Origin: Thraustochytrium sp. TN22
Taxonomy: Eukaryota; Sar; Bigyra; Thraustochytrida; Thraustochytriidae
DNA length: 64,000 nucleotides
NCBI GenBank assembly: GCA_013306675.1
Contig: JABLUY010000178.1
Location: 1-64,000, forward strand
Reading direction: 5' to 3'
Shown: piece after piece, positions 25,186 through 41,986 of the stretch
Position numbering within the stretch: position 1 is the first letter of the stretch
How the letters are laid out: each line of letters begins with the position of its first letter
Translations under genes and position numbers: made by a program
The notes under the pieces: generated by a model
Databases searched by the model: none
The model's input: only the letters and a program-made list of their open reading frames with translations
What the model was told of the DNA's origin: nothing

Positions 25186-27228
25186 ATGCCGGCGCCGCGC
25201 GCGCGGCCGCGGCGGCGCGGCGGCGAGCCCGGCGGCGCGCCCGCCCCCGCGGCGCGCGAGGAGGCCCAGGGCGACGACGCGGCGGCACTGGCTGGCGCGG
25301 AGGCCTCCGCGGGCGCGGACGCGCCGGCGCAGCTGCACGCCGACCACACCGAGGCGCACGACGACGCGCCGCGCGGCGACGGCGACGGTACCGGGGTCCC
25401 GGAGGCGGAGGGAAAAATCAACCAGGCGCAGCTGGACGAGCACGAGGACATGCTCCGTGCTCACGCGCAGCACGAACTGGCCCATGAGCAAGCGCACGCG
25501 CATGAAGATCATGCGCATGCGCATGCGCTCGCGCACGGCCAGGAGGACGGCTTGGGCGCGTTGAACCACGGCGGGCCTCCGTCGATTGCTTCGATAACAC
25601 CATCGACGGCGACGCAGCAGCAGCAGCAGACGCAGCAGACGACGCAGCAGACGCAGCGACAAGAAGGAGAGGCGACGGGCCTCGATGACGATGCAGCTGA
25701 AGCGGAGACCGTGCCGGCGGCGCCTCAAGACATGGACTCGGACCAAGAGGGGGTAGACGAGGAGGACGAGGACGAGGACGGGGACGAGGAAGGGGGCGCG
25801 CCGTGGGACTCGGTGGAAGAACAGATTCTACGCACGGCCGTCACCGCGTACAAGGGAACCGCGTGGGACCAAGTTGCACGATTCTTGCCGAACCGGTCCG
25901 CCGAGGAGTGCCAACGGCAGTGGAACCGCCTCTTCACGGCGACGGCGCCGACCAAGGGATCCTGGACACCCGAGGAGGACCGCAAGCTGAAGCAGGTGGT
26001 GGCCATGCACGGCGCGCAGCACTGGTCGAGCATTATTTCCTCCTATTTCTCGAACAGGAGCGGCAAACAATGCCGCGAACGTTGGCGAAACCACCTCGAC
26101 CCGCGGCTGAAGCGCGGCCCGTGGACCGAGGAGGAGGAGCGCATCTTGATGGAGGCGCGCAAGACAGCTGGCAATCGCTGGTCCCAGATCGCCAAGATGC
26201 TCCCCGGGCGTAGCGACAATGACGTCAAGAACCACTGGTACGCCTCGCAGCGACGCCTGAAGACTCGCATGCAGCTGGTCAACATCGTCTACGCGCAGCA
26301 GACCGGCGACGAAACGAGCACTTCCGCGGACAAGCGCGCCCGTGCGCCGGGCGAGGATGGGATGGGCGTCGAGGACACCAAGCGACAGCGTCTGGGCGGT
26401 GACGAGGACGAGCAGGGCACGCTCTCGCGAGGCCCGCCGTCGTCGGCCCTGGATGTATTCACGGATGGTGGTGTGGGGGCGACGGCAACGTCGGCAACGT
26501 CTACCACGTCTACAGCAGGAGCAGCGGCAGGGGCCGGCGACGGCGAGCACAGCGCGGAGGCGAGCGGCGAGGACGTGGCGTCGACGGCCAAGTGGGACCC
26601 CAAAGAGGGCGCCATGCTCATGGAGCTCGTGCAAAAGCTCGGCACGGACTGGAACAGCATCGCGCGGCAGATGCCGCGGCGGTCCGCGCTGCAGTGCGCG
26701 CAGCACTGGGACAACGTGCTCAACCCAAACATGATCAAAGGCCGCGGCTCGTGGTCGCCAACCGAGGACCAGAAGCTGCGCGAGCTCGTACTCAAGCACG
26801 GCGCGGGCAAGTGGTCAATCCAGATTGCGCCGCACCTGCCAGGCCGCGCCGGAAAGCAATGCCGCGAGCGTTGGTACAACGCGCTGCAACCCGACTTGCG
26901 CCGCGGCGACTGGACTCGCGAGGAGGAGGACCTCTTTGAGCAGCTTCACAACAACCATGGGAACCAATGGGCGAACATCGCACGAAAGCTGCCTGGGCGC
27001 AGCGCCAACGACGTGAAAAACCACTACTACGCGTCCATGCGTCGCCGCAACCGCCACGCCAAGAAGATGGCCAAGACTGGCGGCCGCGACGTCTCACTCG
27101 CGCCCCGCGCCCCCTTGGGTGTCCTTCAGAGCGGCTCGGCCTCGTCCCAGGCGCCGCCGCCACCACCGCCACCGCCGCCGCCACCGCATTCGGCGTCCTC
27201 GACTCAAAATCCCCATGCCATGGAATGA
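25186..27228 (+). CDS. Six-repeat MYB DNA-binding protein (two 3R-MYB cassettes)
   Basis: A 680-residue nuclear protein. After a His/Ala/Gln-rich acidic N-terminus come three MYB repeats (about 206-251, 258-304, 310-355), a 110-residue linker, then three more (about 468-513, 521-567, 573-618). The first cassette has GSWTPEEDRKLKQVV, NRSGKQCRERWRNHLDP and GPWTEEEERIL ending NDVKNHWYAS. The second has GSWSPTEDQKLRELV, GRAGKQCRERWYNALQP and GDWTREEEDLF ending NDVKNHYYAS. Both keep the spaced Trp residues and RERW/VKNH recognition helices of animal c-MYB and plant 3R-MYB, so the protein has two complete DNA-binding modules. The C-terminus is a Pro run. 3R-MYBs commonly control G2/M genes; that role is inference here. 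Confidence 0.9.
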   Translation: MPAPRARPRRRGGEPGGAPAPAAREEAQGDDAAALAGAEASAGADAPAQLHADHTEAHDDAPRGDGDGTGVPEAEGKINQAQLDEHEDMLRAHAQHELAHEQAHAHEDHAHAHALAHGQEDGLGALNHGGPPSIASITPSTATQQQQQTQQTTQQTQRQEGEATGLDDDAAEAETVPAAPQDMDSDQEGVDEEDEDEDGDEEGGAPWDSVEEQILRTAVTAYKGTAWDQVARFLPNRSAEECQRQWNRLFTATAPTKGSWTPEEDRKLKQVVAMHGAQHWSSIISSYFSNRSGKQCRERWRNHLDPRLKRGPWTEEEERILMEARKTAGNRWSQIAKMLPGRSDNDVKNHWYASQRRLKTRMQLVNIVYAQQTGDETSTSADKRARAPGEDGMGVEDTKRQRLGGDEDEQGTLSRGPPSSALDVFTDGGVGATATSATSTTSTAGAAAGAGDGEHSAEASGEDVASTAKWDPKEGAMLMELVQKLGTDWNSIARQMPRRSALQCAQHWDNVLNPNMIKGRGSWSPTEDQKLRELVLKHGAGKWSIQIAPHLPGRAGKQCRERWYNALQPDLRRGDWTREEEDLFEQLHNNHGNQWANIARKLPGRSANDVKNHYYASMRRRNRHAKKMAKTGGRDVSLAPRAPLGVLQSGSASSQAPPPPPPPPPPPHSASSTQNPHAME

Positions 27229-36679: not shown

Positions 36680-36680
36680 A

Positions 36681-36711
<31 letters not shown>

Positions 36712-37891
36712 CGCCGCGATGGCGGCAGTGGCCGCGCGGCAGCGGCTGGCGCGGCAACGGTGGGCGGCGGCGCAAAAGGTGCGGCGCGTCGAGCTGTACG
36801 TGGCGGGTATGATGTGCCAGGCGAACTGCGGCGCGACGGTGGAGCGCGCGCTGCGCGGCGTGGACGGCGTGGTGCGCGCGACGGCGGACGCCGGGAAGAA
36901 GAGCGCGGAGGCGTGGGTGGAGCCCGGCGTGGCGGACGAGAGCCTGGTGGCAGCCGTGGACGCCGTGGGCTTCGCGGCCAAGGTGGCGGAGCCCGAGTCG
37001 CGTGAACGGCGCGTCAAGCTCAAGGTGGAGGGCATGATGTGCGAGAAGAACTGCGGCTCTACCGTGACGCGTGCGCTGCAGGGCCTGGACGGCGTGCGCG
37101 AGGTCAAGGTGTCGGTCAAGGACGGGAGCGCCAACGTGCTGGTGGAAGGCAGAGTCGCGGACGAAGACCTCGTGGCCGCCGTTGAGGCAGTCGGCTTTGG
37201 CGCGTCAGTCGTAAAGCTGGGCGCGGGCATGCGCCGCGGCGCCGCAGCTGGCGGCAGCAGGCGGGCACGAACGGGTGGGCGGCCGCGGCACGCGTGCATC
37301 CGCGGCGCGGTCCCCCAGGAGGTCCTGGACAAGGCCTTCGCCGGCGTCCTCCAGCACTACCACGAACAGGAGCTCCAGGAGTACAGCCGGTACAAGAACT
37401 GGACGCAGTCGTGCTACATGGACTGCCACGAGCACTGGAGCCCGCAGGTGCCCATCACGGAGCCACTGCGCGACAGCATGGCGGAGGTTATGGAGATCGC
37501 GCGGCTCCGCTTCAAGGAGTGGTACGAGGAGCTGTACGGTCTGGAGGACGCCGACGTGTACTCGTTGAACAGCTTCGTGACCAAGTATATTCCGGTCGAA
37601 GGCAAGGAGGAGTTCGGCAAGCACATCGACAGCGCCAAGGCGGACGGCAGCCTCATCGTGTGCCTGCCGACGGATGACCCGCACGACTGGCCGGGCCTGA
37701 AGGTTTGGGACGGCCCGCGCAACGAAAAGAACGAGGTCCCGGAACACACCTACGTGCTGCAGCCGGGTGACGTGTGCTGTCTGGACTCGCTCATTTGGCA
37801 CCACGGGCTCCCGATCACCAAGGGTGTACGGTACGTGGCGGTCTGCTTCCTCGCGTGCAAATGGAAGAAGGTGAAGCAGGCGAGCGGCTAG
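36680..37891 (+). CDS. HMA-HMA-2OG-Fe(II) dioxygenase fusion
   Basis: A 403-residue protein with a novel-looking domain order. Residues 36-101 and 111-180 are two heavy-metal-associated (ferredoxin-fold) domains. Their metal loops read GMMCQANCG (Cys46, Cys50) and GMMCEKNCG (Cys121, Cys125), so the spacing is Cys-x3-Cys rather than the usual Cys-x2-Cys. From about 210 follows a double-stranded beta-helix dioxygenase region with GKHIDSAK (His315, Asp317), LPGDVCC-like QPGDVCCLD, then WHHGLPITKGVRYV (distal His374/375 and 2OG-binding Arg384), similar to prolyl-4-hydroxylase-type enzymes. The combination suggests a metal-delivered or metal-sensing hydroxylase (inference). A poly-Ala stretch opens the protein. 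The substrate is unknown. Confidence 0.82.

Positions 37892-38069: not shown

Positions 38070-38074
<5 letters not shown>

Positions 38075-38147
<73 letters not shown>
38075..38147. repeat. (CA)n dinucleotide repeat, about 73 bp
   Basis: A nearly pure CA microsatellite in the 270-bp spacer between the convergent HMA-dioxygenase and CFAP61 genes. Confidence 0.97.
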
Positions 38148-38161
38148 CACGGTGGTACCCT

Positions 38162-41100
38162 TTACTTTTTGCTACTGCTGGATGATGAGGTGGTGGCGCG
38201 CAACAGGGGCAGAGCATACATGTCGAGGAGGTCTGCATTAGCGCGAAGAAAGTCCACAACCCGCGCCTGCAACGACTTCTTGACAAGGCCCGGGAGCGCC
38301 TGGCCGCAGGGCCCAACGAGCTGGCCGCGCGCAACTGCAATGTCGAGGTCCTCGGCAGTCTCCGAAGCGTAGGTGTCGGCGAGCTTGGCGACAACGGCAC
38401 GCAGGTCGTCGTCGTCGGCCCGGCCGGCCAGCATGGCACGCAGGTCCTGGCAGAAGCTGCCGAGGCGGTCGTGGTAGAGAGCGGCGGCCCAGTCCTGCGA
38501 GAGAAAGTCGAGCAGGTCGGTGACGCGGCCGCGCGAGAGCTGGTCCTCGAGGCCGTTCAGGTAGGACACGTGCAGGCCGACGAGCTGGTCGACCGGCGCG
38601 ATGCGATTCTTGAGCGTGCGTAGGCGAGCCGCGGTCAGGCGCTGCTGAGGCGCAGGCGGCTGCAGTGCATCGTCGGCGAGCCCGTAGGAGACGCTGGCGA
38701 TATAGCCCAGGTGCGTGACCTCCAGCCGGCAGAAGGAGTGCTCGGACTGCGTCTCAAAGGCGGTGAACTTGTCGGAGCCGTCCCAGCCGGGCGAGCAGGC
38801 GCGAAAGTACGCGACGCGGCCTGGCAGCTCGACGCTGTGCGCTTGCACGTGCGGCATGGACCAGACGGGCAGCGCGTCGTTGGCGAGGTCATTGGCGTCG
38901 GCGCCGTCATCCGCCGCGTCCTGCAGCGGGTCGACGTAGCTGAGCAGGCTGGCGGCGACGCGCGCGCCGACCTCGCGCGAGTTGTTGTGCTCCATGGCGA
39001 GAGGCGCGCGGTAGCGGCGGGAGAACTTGGTGTTGCTGCCACAGCCGAAGATGCGCGGGTCGACGGTCTGGAAGCGGCTGTTGACCACCATGCGGCCGTC
39101 ATAGACCAGGCCGGTATCGTTGACGGAGGCGAAGACGTCCGGGTCAACGTTGCGCTCGTCCGCCGTGACAAGCAGGCGGCAGTCGATGGTCTCGGTAAGC
39201 GCGTCGGCGTCCTCGGTGCGTTTGGCCTCGTCGTCGCCACGGCCATCGTCCTCGTCGCCATTGCCGTCGCCGTCGTTGTTGTTTGACTTGGCGGCGGCGA
39301 CGGGGGCGGCGCGAGCGGGAGCCTCGCGCATGAAGACTGCGCGACAGACGGCGCCGGTGCCCAGATCGCGCTCCGCGGCGGTGAGCTTGAGACCGGAGCG
39401 CACGCTGACGCCGGCGGCCGCGAGCTCGCGCGTGACGCGCTCGGCGACCCAGGCGTCGCGGGCAAAGGGCGAGTCGCCCTCGGTGGGTTGCACGAGCGTG
39501 ATGCAGGAGCCCGGCAGGCCCCAGGACAGAAGCGCCTGCACGGCGGCGTAGGCCTCGAGCGTGGCGCCGTAGACCACGGTGGGCGCCTTGACCTTGGCGT
39601 GCTTGGTCTCGATGGCGCGGCGCAGCACCACGGCTTCGCGCGGGTTGCTGCCGACACCGTAGGCGGACTCAGCGAGCGACTTGGACTCCTGCAGGTCGGC
39701 GTGCTTGATGTCGCAGAAACGGTGCAGCGAGGTATCCTGCAAGCCAGTGGCCAGCACGAGGTAGTCGTAGGGCACAAGCGAACCGTCCGCCAGCACGACG
39801 GCCTGCGAGGTGCGTTCGATGAAGAGCATGCGGTCCTCGATGACGCTGACGCGCTCGCGCAGGCCGAGGCGGTCCAGGAAGCGCGAGTCGTAGCCGCCGG
39901 GCGCGCTCGTGCCGTGCGTACAGAGCGCGCGCACGCCGTCGAAGCGCTCGTCCGCGACGCCGCCCGGCGCGACCAGCGTGAGCTTGGAAAAGTACGCATG
40001 TGGCAGCACCAGGAACTCCTCGAGGAGCGCCAGGCCGGCGGCAGATGCGCCCACCACCACGATGCGCGTGTTGAGCGTGAGGCGCGGCTCAGAGAGCGCG
40101 GCGCGCGAAAGCAGAAAGAGCGAGAAGCGCGTGTGCTCCTCAGGCGGCTCATGCACGTGGCGCAGCTTGTGCGCGCGCTGCAGGAAGAAAGTGCGGCGCG
40201 GACGCAGGGGTGCCATCTGCTCCACCACCGCGACGGGCGGCAGCTGGCCGGGAAAGAGCTGGTACACGAGAGCATGCAGGTCGGCTTGGCGCATGACCTC
40301 TTGCAAGATGGCGCGCGCGAACTGGCTAAAGATGGGCATGAGCGCCATTTGCAGGAGCGCGCCAACGTGCAGGGACTCACGCTGCGCTGCCGTGGCCGGC
40401 ATGCCGCGCACCGCCTCAAGGTGGAACTTGTGGCCGAAGCTGGTGGCCTCCTCGCGGCTGACGCGCGGGCGCAGAATGATGACGCCGACGAGCTGGCCAA
40501 GCACCTCGACGAGCATCGTGTCGTGTGCGTCGTCGCGCGCCTGGCGCACCGCCTCGTCGCGCGCCTCAAGGCCCTCGAGCAGATCCATCATGGCGGCCGT
40601 GTCGGCCTCGCCCAGCGCGGATCGGCGCACGGTGAGCTGGCTGCCGCCGACCCAGGCAGGAGGAGGCGTGCCGCGCGGGGATTCGCAGCAGGTCTTGGTC
40701 TCCTGGGCCTTGGCCTCCTCCTCTTGCTCTCGCTCCTCCTCCTCCTCCTCCTCCTCCTCTCCCTTGGTCTCGTCGTTGTCGTCGTCGCCCTCATCATCTT
40801 CGTCGTTCTTTCCCTCGTCCTCCTCGTCATCGGCCTGCTCCTTTCCTTCCGTGACGGCAGGCGGGGCTGCGTAAGCGTCGGCAATGAACTCGGGCGCCTT
40901 GAGCACGCGCAGCGCGTCGCGGTGCAAGACGTAGAGGCTGTGCGAGAGGGTTGATTTCTCGTGCGCCGGCACAGGGCTGAAAAAGGGCAGCAACGCGCTC
41001 TCGTAGACCTCACAGGGCAGCGTGAGCACGCAAAACTCCTTGCCGGGAAAGGCCTCAAAGGCGGCCAGCAGGACGTCGCGCGTGCGCGCACGGTGGGCCT

Positions 41101-41986
41101 CGTCAATACAAAAGATCGAAATGGCGAACACGTTGTCGTTGGCGCTCTGCGCAAGCAGCGCCTCGTCGCTGCCGTCCGGGGCTGCGGCGGCCACGGTGTC
41201 GGAAGCAGCGAGGTTGTCGAAGGCATCGAGGTCGAAGTTGGCCTGCAGCACGCCGACGTCGATCTGCGTGGTGAGGCAGACCATGCCGACGGGCCGGCCG
41301 CGCAGCGTCGCGGAGATGGCGCGGTTGTCTTCGTCCTGCGCCTCGATGAGCTCGGCGAGGAAAAATTCTCCAAAGGTGCGCGAGAGCACCTGGCTCTGGG
41401 CATCGAAGACCTTGACGAGGTCGTCATAGTCCTCGACCTGCGCCGGCCGCGTCTCCAGGTTGAGCGCCCAGCTGATGCGTGCCGCGCACAGCACGAGCCA
41501 CGGCACGTCGTCGCGGCGGTCGGACGGGGCCACGTAGGCGCCGGCGTCGTCAAAGTAGAGGTCCCGGTACAGCGCCTTGCTGCGGCTCTGTGGGTGACAC
41601 ATGAGGAGGACAAAGTCGGTGCGCGGCAGCGTGTCGAAGAGCGCGCGCATGACGAGGTCCAGGCATGCGGCCTCCTCGCTGGCGTGCGCGCCCCAGCACG
41701 TCAGAAAGAGCGTATTCCCCGGCTCCGCGCCCGGCACCTCGATGAGCGCGCAGGCATCCTCGGCGCGCGCGAAGCCCTGCGCGGGCCGGTCGTCGAAGGC
41801 AGCAAAGGCCACCGTGGCGCCCTCAGCGTCCTCCACCACCACACACAGCAGCGACCCTGGCAGCACCTGCGTCAGCAGCGCCGCCTCGATGTTCTCCGCG
41901 CCTGCGAACCACTCCTGCGCGCGCACCAGCGCGCTGGCAGCGGCCACATCGCTTGCCTCCGCGCGCCGCACCACCAGCCCGTCCAT
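38162..41986 (-). CDS. CFAP61: CFAP61 homologue, ciliary calmodulin/spoke-associated complex
   Basis: A 1274-residue protein. The first 350 residues match CFAP61: ARVEDHDDL-like AQVEDYDDLVKVF, GEFFLAELIEAQDEDNRAI, FAISIFCIDEAHRAR and KEFCVLTLPCE. This part resembles an acetyltransferase-like fold. A long acidic Glu/Asp region (about 385-425) follows, then a second conserved block and a pyridine-nucleotide oxidoreductase-like domain beginning TRIVVVGASAAGLALLEEF with YDYLVLATGLQD and a later Rossmann-like region. CFAP61 belongs to the calmodulin- and radial-spoke-associated complex of motile 9+2 axonemes. Its presence implies a flagellated cell stage. It is full length without introns, which is unusual for so large a gene in most lineages. 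Confidence 0.9.
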   Translation of the reverse strand: MDGLVVRRAEASDVAAASALVRAQEWFAGAENIEAALLTQVLPGSLLCVVVEDAEGATVAFAAFDDRPAQGFARAEDACALIEVPGAEPGNTLFLTCWGAHASEEAACLDLVMRALFDTLPRTDFVLLMCHPQSRSKALYRDLYFDDAGAYVAPSDRRDDVPWLVLCAARISWALNLETRPAQVEDYDDLVKVFDAQSQVLSRTFGEFFLAELIEAQDEDNRAISATLRGRPVGMVCLTTQIDVGVLQANFDLDAFDNLAASDTVAAAAPDGSDEALLAQSANDNVFAISIFCIDEAHRARTRDVLLAAFEAFPGKEFCVLTLPCEVYESALLPFFSPVPAHEKSTLSHSLYVLHRDALRVLKAPEFIADAYAAPPAVTEGKEQADDEEDEGKNDEDDEGDDDNDETKGEEEEEEEEEREQEEEAKAQETKTCCESPRGTPPPAWVGGSQLTVRRSALGEADTAAMMDLLEGLEARDEAVRQARDDAHDTMLVEVLGQLVGVIILRPRVSREEATSFGHKFHLEAVRGMPATAAQRESLHVGALLQMALMPIFSQFARAILQEVMRQADLHALVYQLFPGQLPPVAVVEQMAPLRPRRTFFLQRAHKLRHVHEPPEEHTRFSLFLLSRAALSEPRLTLNTRIVVVGASAAGLALLEEFLVLPHAYFSKLTLVAPGGVADERFDGVRALCTHGTSAPGGYDSRFLDRLGLRERVSVIEDRMLFIERTSQAVVLADGSLVPYDYLVLATGLQDTSLHRFCDIKHADLQESKSLAESAYGVGSNPREAVVLRRAIETKHAKVKAPTVVYGATLEAYAAVQALLSWGLPGSCITLVQPTEGDSPFARDAWVAERVTRELAAAGVSVRSGLKLTAAERDLGTGAVCRAVFMREAPARAAPVAAAKSNNNDGDGNGDEDDGRGDDEAKRTEDADALTETIDCRLLVTADERNVDPDVFASVNDTGLVYDGRMVVNSRFQTVDPRIFGCGSNTKFSRRYRAPLAMEHNNSREVGARVAASLLSYVDPLQDAADDGADANDLANDALPVWSMPHVQAHSVELPGRVAYFRACSPGWDGSDKFTAFETQSEHSFCRLEVTHLGYIASVSYGLADDALQPPAPQQRLTAARLRTLKNRIAPVDQLVGLHVSYLNGLEDQLSRGRVTDLLDFLSQDWAAALYHDRLGSFCQDLRAMLAGRADDDDLRAVVAKLADTYASETAEDLDIAVARGQLVGPCGQALPGLVKKSLQARVVDFLRANADLLDMYALPLLRATTSSSSSSKK

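Follow-up and report, generated by a model that had tools for sequence, protein, structure and literature searches.

The gene considered here lies on contig JABLUY010000178.1 of Thraustochytrium sp. TN22, within a 64,000-nucleotide window (the whole stretch of DNA that was analyzed), and encodes two heavy-metal-associated (HMA) domains followed by a 2-oxoglutarate (2OG)-Fe(II) oxygenase-like domain. This domain order was proposed in a preliminary description made from the sequence alone, and the sequence, the profile matches, and the predicted fold all support it. Translation of the frame returned the coordinates, length, and residues given in that description (Table 1). As far as sequence can tell, the HMA and oxygenase halves form one gene, since no stop codon interrupts the frame from the first HMA domain to the end of the oxygenase and the GC content at third codon positions (GC3) is continuous, with values of 0.903 for the HMA part, 0.833 for the 90-bp join, and 0.912 for the oxygenase part. 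GC3 is similar in the neighboring genes EBP2 (0.907) and CFAP61 (0.874), which lie ~730 bp and 270 bp from the frame, respectively. Without splicing, the HMA frame cannot terminate ahead of the oxygenase, and a single transcript probably covers both halves; in a GC-rich genome, an open linker by itself would carry little weight. All comparisons with eukaryotic sequence were made within this one genome (37.9 Mb, 453 contigs).

Table 1. Coordinates of the fusion gene and its features, numbered from the first nucleotide of the window. pLDDT, predicted local distance difference test.
Feature	Residues	Position in window	Strand	Remarks
Whole open frame		36680..37891	+	403 aa, ATG to TAG, no internal stop, one unspliced frame
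Poly-Ala, then basic segment	1-34	36680..36781	+	7 K/R and no D/E in first 37 residues; helix 2-31 in model
HMA domain 1	35-103	36782..36988	+	22.6 bits to PF00403, below cut-off 24.8; beta-alpha-beta-beta-alpha-beta in model
Metal loop GMMCQANCG, Cys46-x3-Cys50	43-51	36806..36832	+	
HMA domain 2	110-180	37007..37219	+	41.7 bits to PF00403 (cut-off 24.8)
Metal loop GMMCEKNCG, Cys121-x3-Cys125	118-126	37031..37057	+	
Gly/Arg/Ala-rich linker	181-203	37220..37288	+	69 bp; pLDDT <50 at 181-199
2OG-Fe(II) oxygenase-like domain	204-395	37289..37864	+	Double-stranded beta-helix in model; profile and viral relatives
CYMDCHEH (C245, C249, H250, H252) in oxygenase domain		37412..37435	+	
His315-x-Asp317, predicted Fe(II) ligands	315-317	37622..37630	+	Present in 56/56 viral relatives
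His374, predicted distal Fe(II) ligand	374	37799..37801	+	Present in 56/56 viral relatives
Arg384, predicted 2OG carboxylate anchor	384	37829..37831	+	10 residues past His374; present in 56/56 viral relatives

Both HMA domains carry a Cys-x3-Cys (Cx3C) metal loop. The loop residues bear out this part of the preliminary description, as does the match of the whole protein to the Pfam HMA family (PF00403; 54.3 bits, gathering cut-off 24.8). The Pfam search it had proposed succeeded for HMA and failed for the other half, with no 2OG-Fe(II) Pfam profile matched. Neither copy has the canonical loop G-M-x-C-x-x-C. In a full-length AlphaFold2 model, both domains adopt the beta-alpha-beta-beta-alpha-beta fold with 10-residue mean pLDDT values of 70-91, falling to 62 at the junction between them (residues 101-110). 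Foldseek searches with this model ranked ATP7B (7si6) first and the N-terminal domains of B. subtilis CopA (2rml) second, at low TM-scores by query (0.20 and 0.16, respectively). When the HMA pair was searched against plasmids using tblastn, 391 records were returned; the 40 listed comprise 37 with a P-type ATPase or ATPase annotation and three without annotation.

Several NCBIfam models match the HMA pair, all of them below their cut-offs. The best by score is NF041115, a UxxU metal-binding (seleno)protein, at 91.5 bits against a cut-off of 95. CopZ_AFE_1862 (NF047957) reaches 82.8 bits with both domains, and 56.8 and 40.4 bits with each singly (cut-off 85), and the MerA, MerP, and MerTP models also match. 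The Cx3C loop is not accounted for by the CopZ model, since the copper site of its namesake, A. ferrooxidans CopZ AFE_1862, is Cys13/Cys16 within an MXCXXC motif (PMC7463520). Both HMA domains of the fusion end in the ATPase-type ..VGF, and thus look like ATPase-type domains, that is, receivers or regulators rather than Atx1-like carriers. The metal that they bind is presumably copper.

Several lines of sequence and model evidence identify the C-terminal half as a 2OG-Fe(II) oxygenase, though Pfam misses it. No 2OG profile was returned for the whole protein at a maximum E of 10, a setting at which the HMMER filters still remove most matches above E ~0.1. With 2OG-FeII_Oxy_3 (PF13640) at E 0.001, the fusion was unmatched, while all 30 viral members of a thinned alignment were matched. 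PHROG 61 (2OG-Fe(II) oxygenase) matches residues 52-206 of the last 212 at E 2.7e-5. NCBIfam PRK05467, an Fe2+-dependent dioxygenase, is a weak match over residues 308-394 (E 0.016; 14.7 bits, cut-off 143). A JmjC identity was rejected, with JmjC_2 (PF08007) scoring 16.2 and 18.7 bits against a cut-off of 22. Searches with tblastn returned no match for the oxygenase among plasmids, and 30 records among phages (best E 0.08).

Distant viral relatives support this assignment. Viral contigs were scanned with an alignment of the fusion, a paralogue from the same genome, and two phage proteins, giving at least 57 relatives among 600 candidate stretches; one frame of 76 amino acids was then set aside to leave 56. 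The oxygenase is 16-22% identical to 30 aligned viral relatives. A profile built from the 56, with the query left out, matches the fusion at E 3.2e-10 and no other frame among the 437 in the window (≥80 amino acids); among added rows, it matches only the paralogue (E 0.00085). It matches neither the HMA half, nor the reversed protein, nor any of 200 shuffles. There is some circularity in this test, as the viral rows were found with the help of the query, whereas the PHROG match is free of it. The similarity is not due to chance. Full-length alignments A5, A6, and A7 were dropped, as they placed the N-termini or first strands of the viral proteins against different residues from those in A4, and A8 was used.

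The predicted active site appears complete. His315, Asp317, a distal His, and Arg384 are all present, as first described, and the alignment places the distal ligand at His374 rather than at the adjacent His375. The oxygenase is thus predicted from its residues to be catalytically intact. Models of this region show a double-stranded beta-helix at moderate confidence, in line with the fold that had been anticipated. Beyond the active site, the domain holds two extra Cx3C motifs, one within CYMDCHEH and a second, CFLAC, at window positions 37844-37858; such a motif occurs in 0/56 viral oxygenase relatives. The viral proteins also lack an HMA front: the HMA loop motif is absent from the 57 viral frames of 76-216 amino acids (two of which are truncated at the 5' end), and a Pfam scan of 30 viral members detected no HMA domain at E 0.001. 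The same-genome paralogue is a 301-amino-acid frame (L026 698-1603, contig C419) with a 2OG oxygenase-like domain that is 29% identical to the enzyme part of the fusion over 156 residues; Pfam detects no HMA domain in it.

The Cx3C loop is shared with a copper ATPase of the same genome. A search for GMMCxxNCG in one exact codon pattern, which is blind to other codon spellings, found six occurrences: two in the fusion and four on contig C292 (a reversed control pattern gave none). The four C292 domains sit in a 1337-amino-acid frame that also encodes E1-E2 ATPase and hydrolase domains, as well as an SCPCALG motif. This Cu(+)-ATPase (C292:18500-24500) comprises four GMMCQKNCGTTV (Cx3C) domains, then one GMTCAAC domain; a further degenerate HMA-like stretch was judged by eye. 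Its Cx3C stretch exceeds the cut-off of the CopZ model NF047957 (92.2 bits against 85). Cys-x3-Cys in both copies of the fusion stands as described, but the fusion is not the sole protein with this loop. The four further copies also rule out a one-off mutation of the fusion gene. The identity of HMA domain 2 to HMA domain 1 is 57%, compared with 50, 54, 50, and 45% to the Cx3C domains of the ATPase and 35% to its CxxC domain. The loops of the fusion and the C292 ATPase likely share common descent, judging from these sequences.

Other copper proteins identified in the genome have conventional CxxC loops. These are a second Cu-ATPase (contig C131; GMTCGSC and GLTCSSC), a CCS-like protein (C219; MTCEGC), and an apparent two-exon Atx1 (C343; MSCSGC), the last two named from sequence and not from a profile. 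The presence of this Atx1 rules out the fusion as a stand-in for a missing one, and the apparent intron that splits it suggests that genes of this organism can contain introns. Two further frames were noted. On contig C210 (106500-111500), a P-type ATPase-like frame has a His-rich N-terminus and two HMA-like stretches with adjacent Cys-Cys (25.8 and 19.2 bits), which we guess to be of Zn/Cd type. On contig C132, a 323-amino-acid frame (L029 853-1824) contains an HMA-like stretch without a Cys pair (29.4 bits).

The fusion is real and brings together two known kinds of domain in an unusual way, with an HMA loop variant that it shares with one ATPase. Searched by title and the start of the abstract, with partial coverage, the literature yielded no protein with the HMA-HMA-2OG order or with a Cx3C HMA loop. 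Exact-pattern scans, which among prokaryotes and viruses reach close relatives only, found none for the whole fusion protein (42 stretches from genome contigs), for the Cx3C HMA (192 stretches from genome contigs and 45 from viral contigs), or for the oxygenase alone (3 stretches from viral contigs).

We propose, with a probability of about 0.4, that the Cx3C HMA pair, the flexible linker, and the 2OG-Fe(II) oxygenase act as one protein tied to the copper route. In known copper routes, the HMA domains of carriers associate with those of ATPases. The HMA pair may receive Cu(I) from an Atx1-type chaperone, or may instead dock onto the C292 Cu(+)-ATPase at its four matching Cx3C domains, a pairing suggested by the loop that both proteins share. 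Either would bring the oxygenase to the copper route, or switch it by copper load, and the oxygenase could then hydroxylate a partner there, most likely a protein. The partner, the substrate, and the regulation of the oxygenase are proposed on this basis. Three options had been offered in the preliminary description: self-metallation, a metal-controlled hydroxylase, and an enzyme acting on a trafficking partner. None is proven. The presence of the Cx3C loop in a Cu(+)-ATPase moves weight from the first toward an enzyme that acts on, or is controlled by, copper trafficking.

Several observations weigh against a protein hydroxylase tied to the copper route. P4H, PHD2, and PiuC types are among the Foldseek and VIA-align fold neighbors of the oxygenase model; yet SptF shares the best Foldseek E (2.0e-6), AlkB and SnoN tie with P4H and PHD2 in VIA-align Z score, the top two VIA-align rows are uncharacterized proteins, and WelO5, AndA, AsqJ, FtmOx1, and OkaE crowd the fold list of the full-length model. 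The predicted relation to PHD and P4H is thus one of fold neighbors, tied with other 2OG oxygenases. Since small-molecule oxygenases stand level with protein hydroxylases among these model-based matches, a protein substrate is a guess. The full-length model has a predicted template modeling score of 0.45 and leaves the mutual placement of the two halves undefined. On the HMA side, a tree of 11 HMA domains has no starred branch and does not join those of the fusion to the ATPase Cx3C set, and BLAST with both domains puts the CxxC ATPase of C131 first. The Cx3C loop may also bind copper weakly or prefer another metal. Finally, the fusion is known from a single genome.

A more specific form of this proposal is a copper-gated hydroxylase, which we consider unlikely. 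The Cx3C HMA domains would act as sensors of Cu(I) or acquire it, and would switch the hydroxylase or direct it onto the copper ATPase or the carriers of that ATPase, with Cx3C defining a private copper channel shared with the C292 ATPase. If true, a single protein would make copper export responsive to oxygen, iron, and 2-oxoglutarate. More generally, an HMA pair ahead of an iron/oxygen hydroxylase would be a direct physical link from copper traffic to oxygen or iron sensing. Enzyme-fused copper carriers are few, and where known (CCS) they serve copper delivery. The Cu-ATPase with four copies of the same unusual loop offers a testable partner, and the Cx3C set marks a variant HMA loop with a measurable metal preference.

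Among alternatives to a role in the copper route, a recent, lineage-private fusion survives best, although it is rather improbable. The HMA part would then be a passenger or stabilizing tail without a role in catalysis or location. In favor of this are the single genome, the lack of relatives in the exact-pattern scans, the low-confidence linker, and the first HMA domain, which scores under the Pfam cut-off. However, GMMC--NCG is kept in both loops, and both domains fold in the model, apart from their junction. It is doubtful that the protein instead detoxifies or senses another soft metal (Hg, Cd, Ag, or Zn), with the HMA domains binding the ion and the oxygenase modifying a small molecule or protein. 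The sub-threshold Mer models favor this, as does NF041115, the best NCBIfam model, entered as a putative mercuric reductase in PMC13188914. However, the CopZ model scores nearly level with NF041115, which also matches the CxxC HMA pair of the C131 Cu-ATPase (86.2 bits), and so does not discriminate.

Self-metallation, in which the HMA domains hand iron to the active site of the oxygenase or keep copper off it, is quite unlikely. CCS, which supplies copper to SOD1 and in which an HMA domain is coupled to a SOD-like domain, provides a precedent, and a CCS-like protein is encoded in this genome. To our knowledge, however, the ions carried by HMA domains are soft ones, Cu(I) for example, rather than Fe(II), and the viral oxygenase relatives lack HMA domains, both of which make self-metallation less likely; the occurrence of the same loop in a copper ATPase also speaks against it. 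In mammals, PCBP1/2 deliver iron to PHD2 and FIH1 (PMC4106451), a further precedent. That two genes or exons were read as one frame is very improbable: the genome appears to have introns, and 93 bare GT..AG pairs of ≥40 bp lie within 37190-37420 (49 of them multiples of three), as expected of bare dinucleotides anyway, but the frame is stop-free, its GC3 runs on across the join, and a promoter would hardly fit into the 69-bp linker.

The N-terminus and surroundings of the gene have further features. The N-terminal segment is possibly, on weak grounds, a targeting segment, perhaps a mitochondrial one, although its hydrophobic moment is low (≤0.44 in 18-residue windows starting at residues 1-30). 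The poly-Ala is encoded by a GCG-rich repeat (window 36680-36730), and Met14 is an alternative start. A (CA)n microsatellite (38072-38148) lies between the fusion gene and the convergent CFAP61 (38162-41986, - strand). Elsewhere in the window, 25186-27228 encodes a six-Myb-repeat protein by Pfam. The genome also encodes a 3044-amino-acid frame that, with its neighbors in frame, scores 2539.7 bits to the PfaA polyunsaturated fatty acid synthase model (cut-off 1010.1), a cut-off exceeded in 0/14 control genomes. Among eukaryotes, such a synthase is a marker of thraustochytrids; together with the genome size and the eukaryotic genes that flank the fusion, it points to a thraustochytrid genome.

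The fusion resembles four known systems without matching any of them. With Cu(+)-ATPase metal-binding domains (PF00403), especially those of C292, it shares the domain family, the GMMCxxNCGxTV loop, and the ..VGF/..MGF end; however, its HMA domains are detached from any ATPase and joined to an oxygenase, and the canonical loop of such domains is CxxC. With 2OG-FeII_Oxy_3 proteins of the P4H-PHD-PiuC type (PF13640; PDB 4j25, PHD2, PiuC 9qn0/9qn4), it shares H-x-D, the distal His, the Arg 10 residues later, and a modeled double-stranded beta-helix, but it is unmatched by PF13640 and has extra Cys residues and an HMA-HMA front. CCS is likewise an HMA carrier fused to an enzyme-like domain, with a CxxC loop and a SOD-like second domain in place of Cx3C and an iron oxygenase; Pfam at a maximum E of 10 assigned the fusion to no SOD family. 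Mercuric reductase MerA also places HMA ahead of a redox enzyme, although the enzyme in that case is a flavin disulfide reductase, and the HMA loop of MerA is CxxC.
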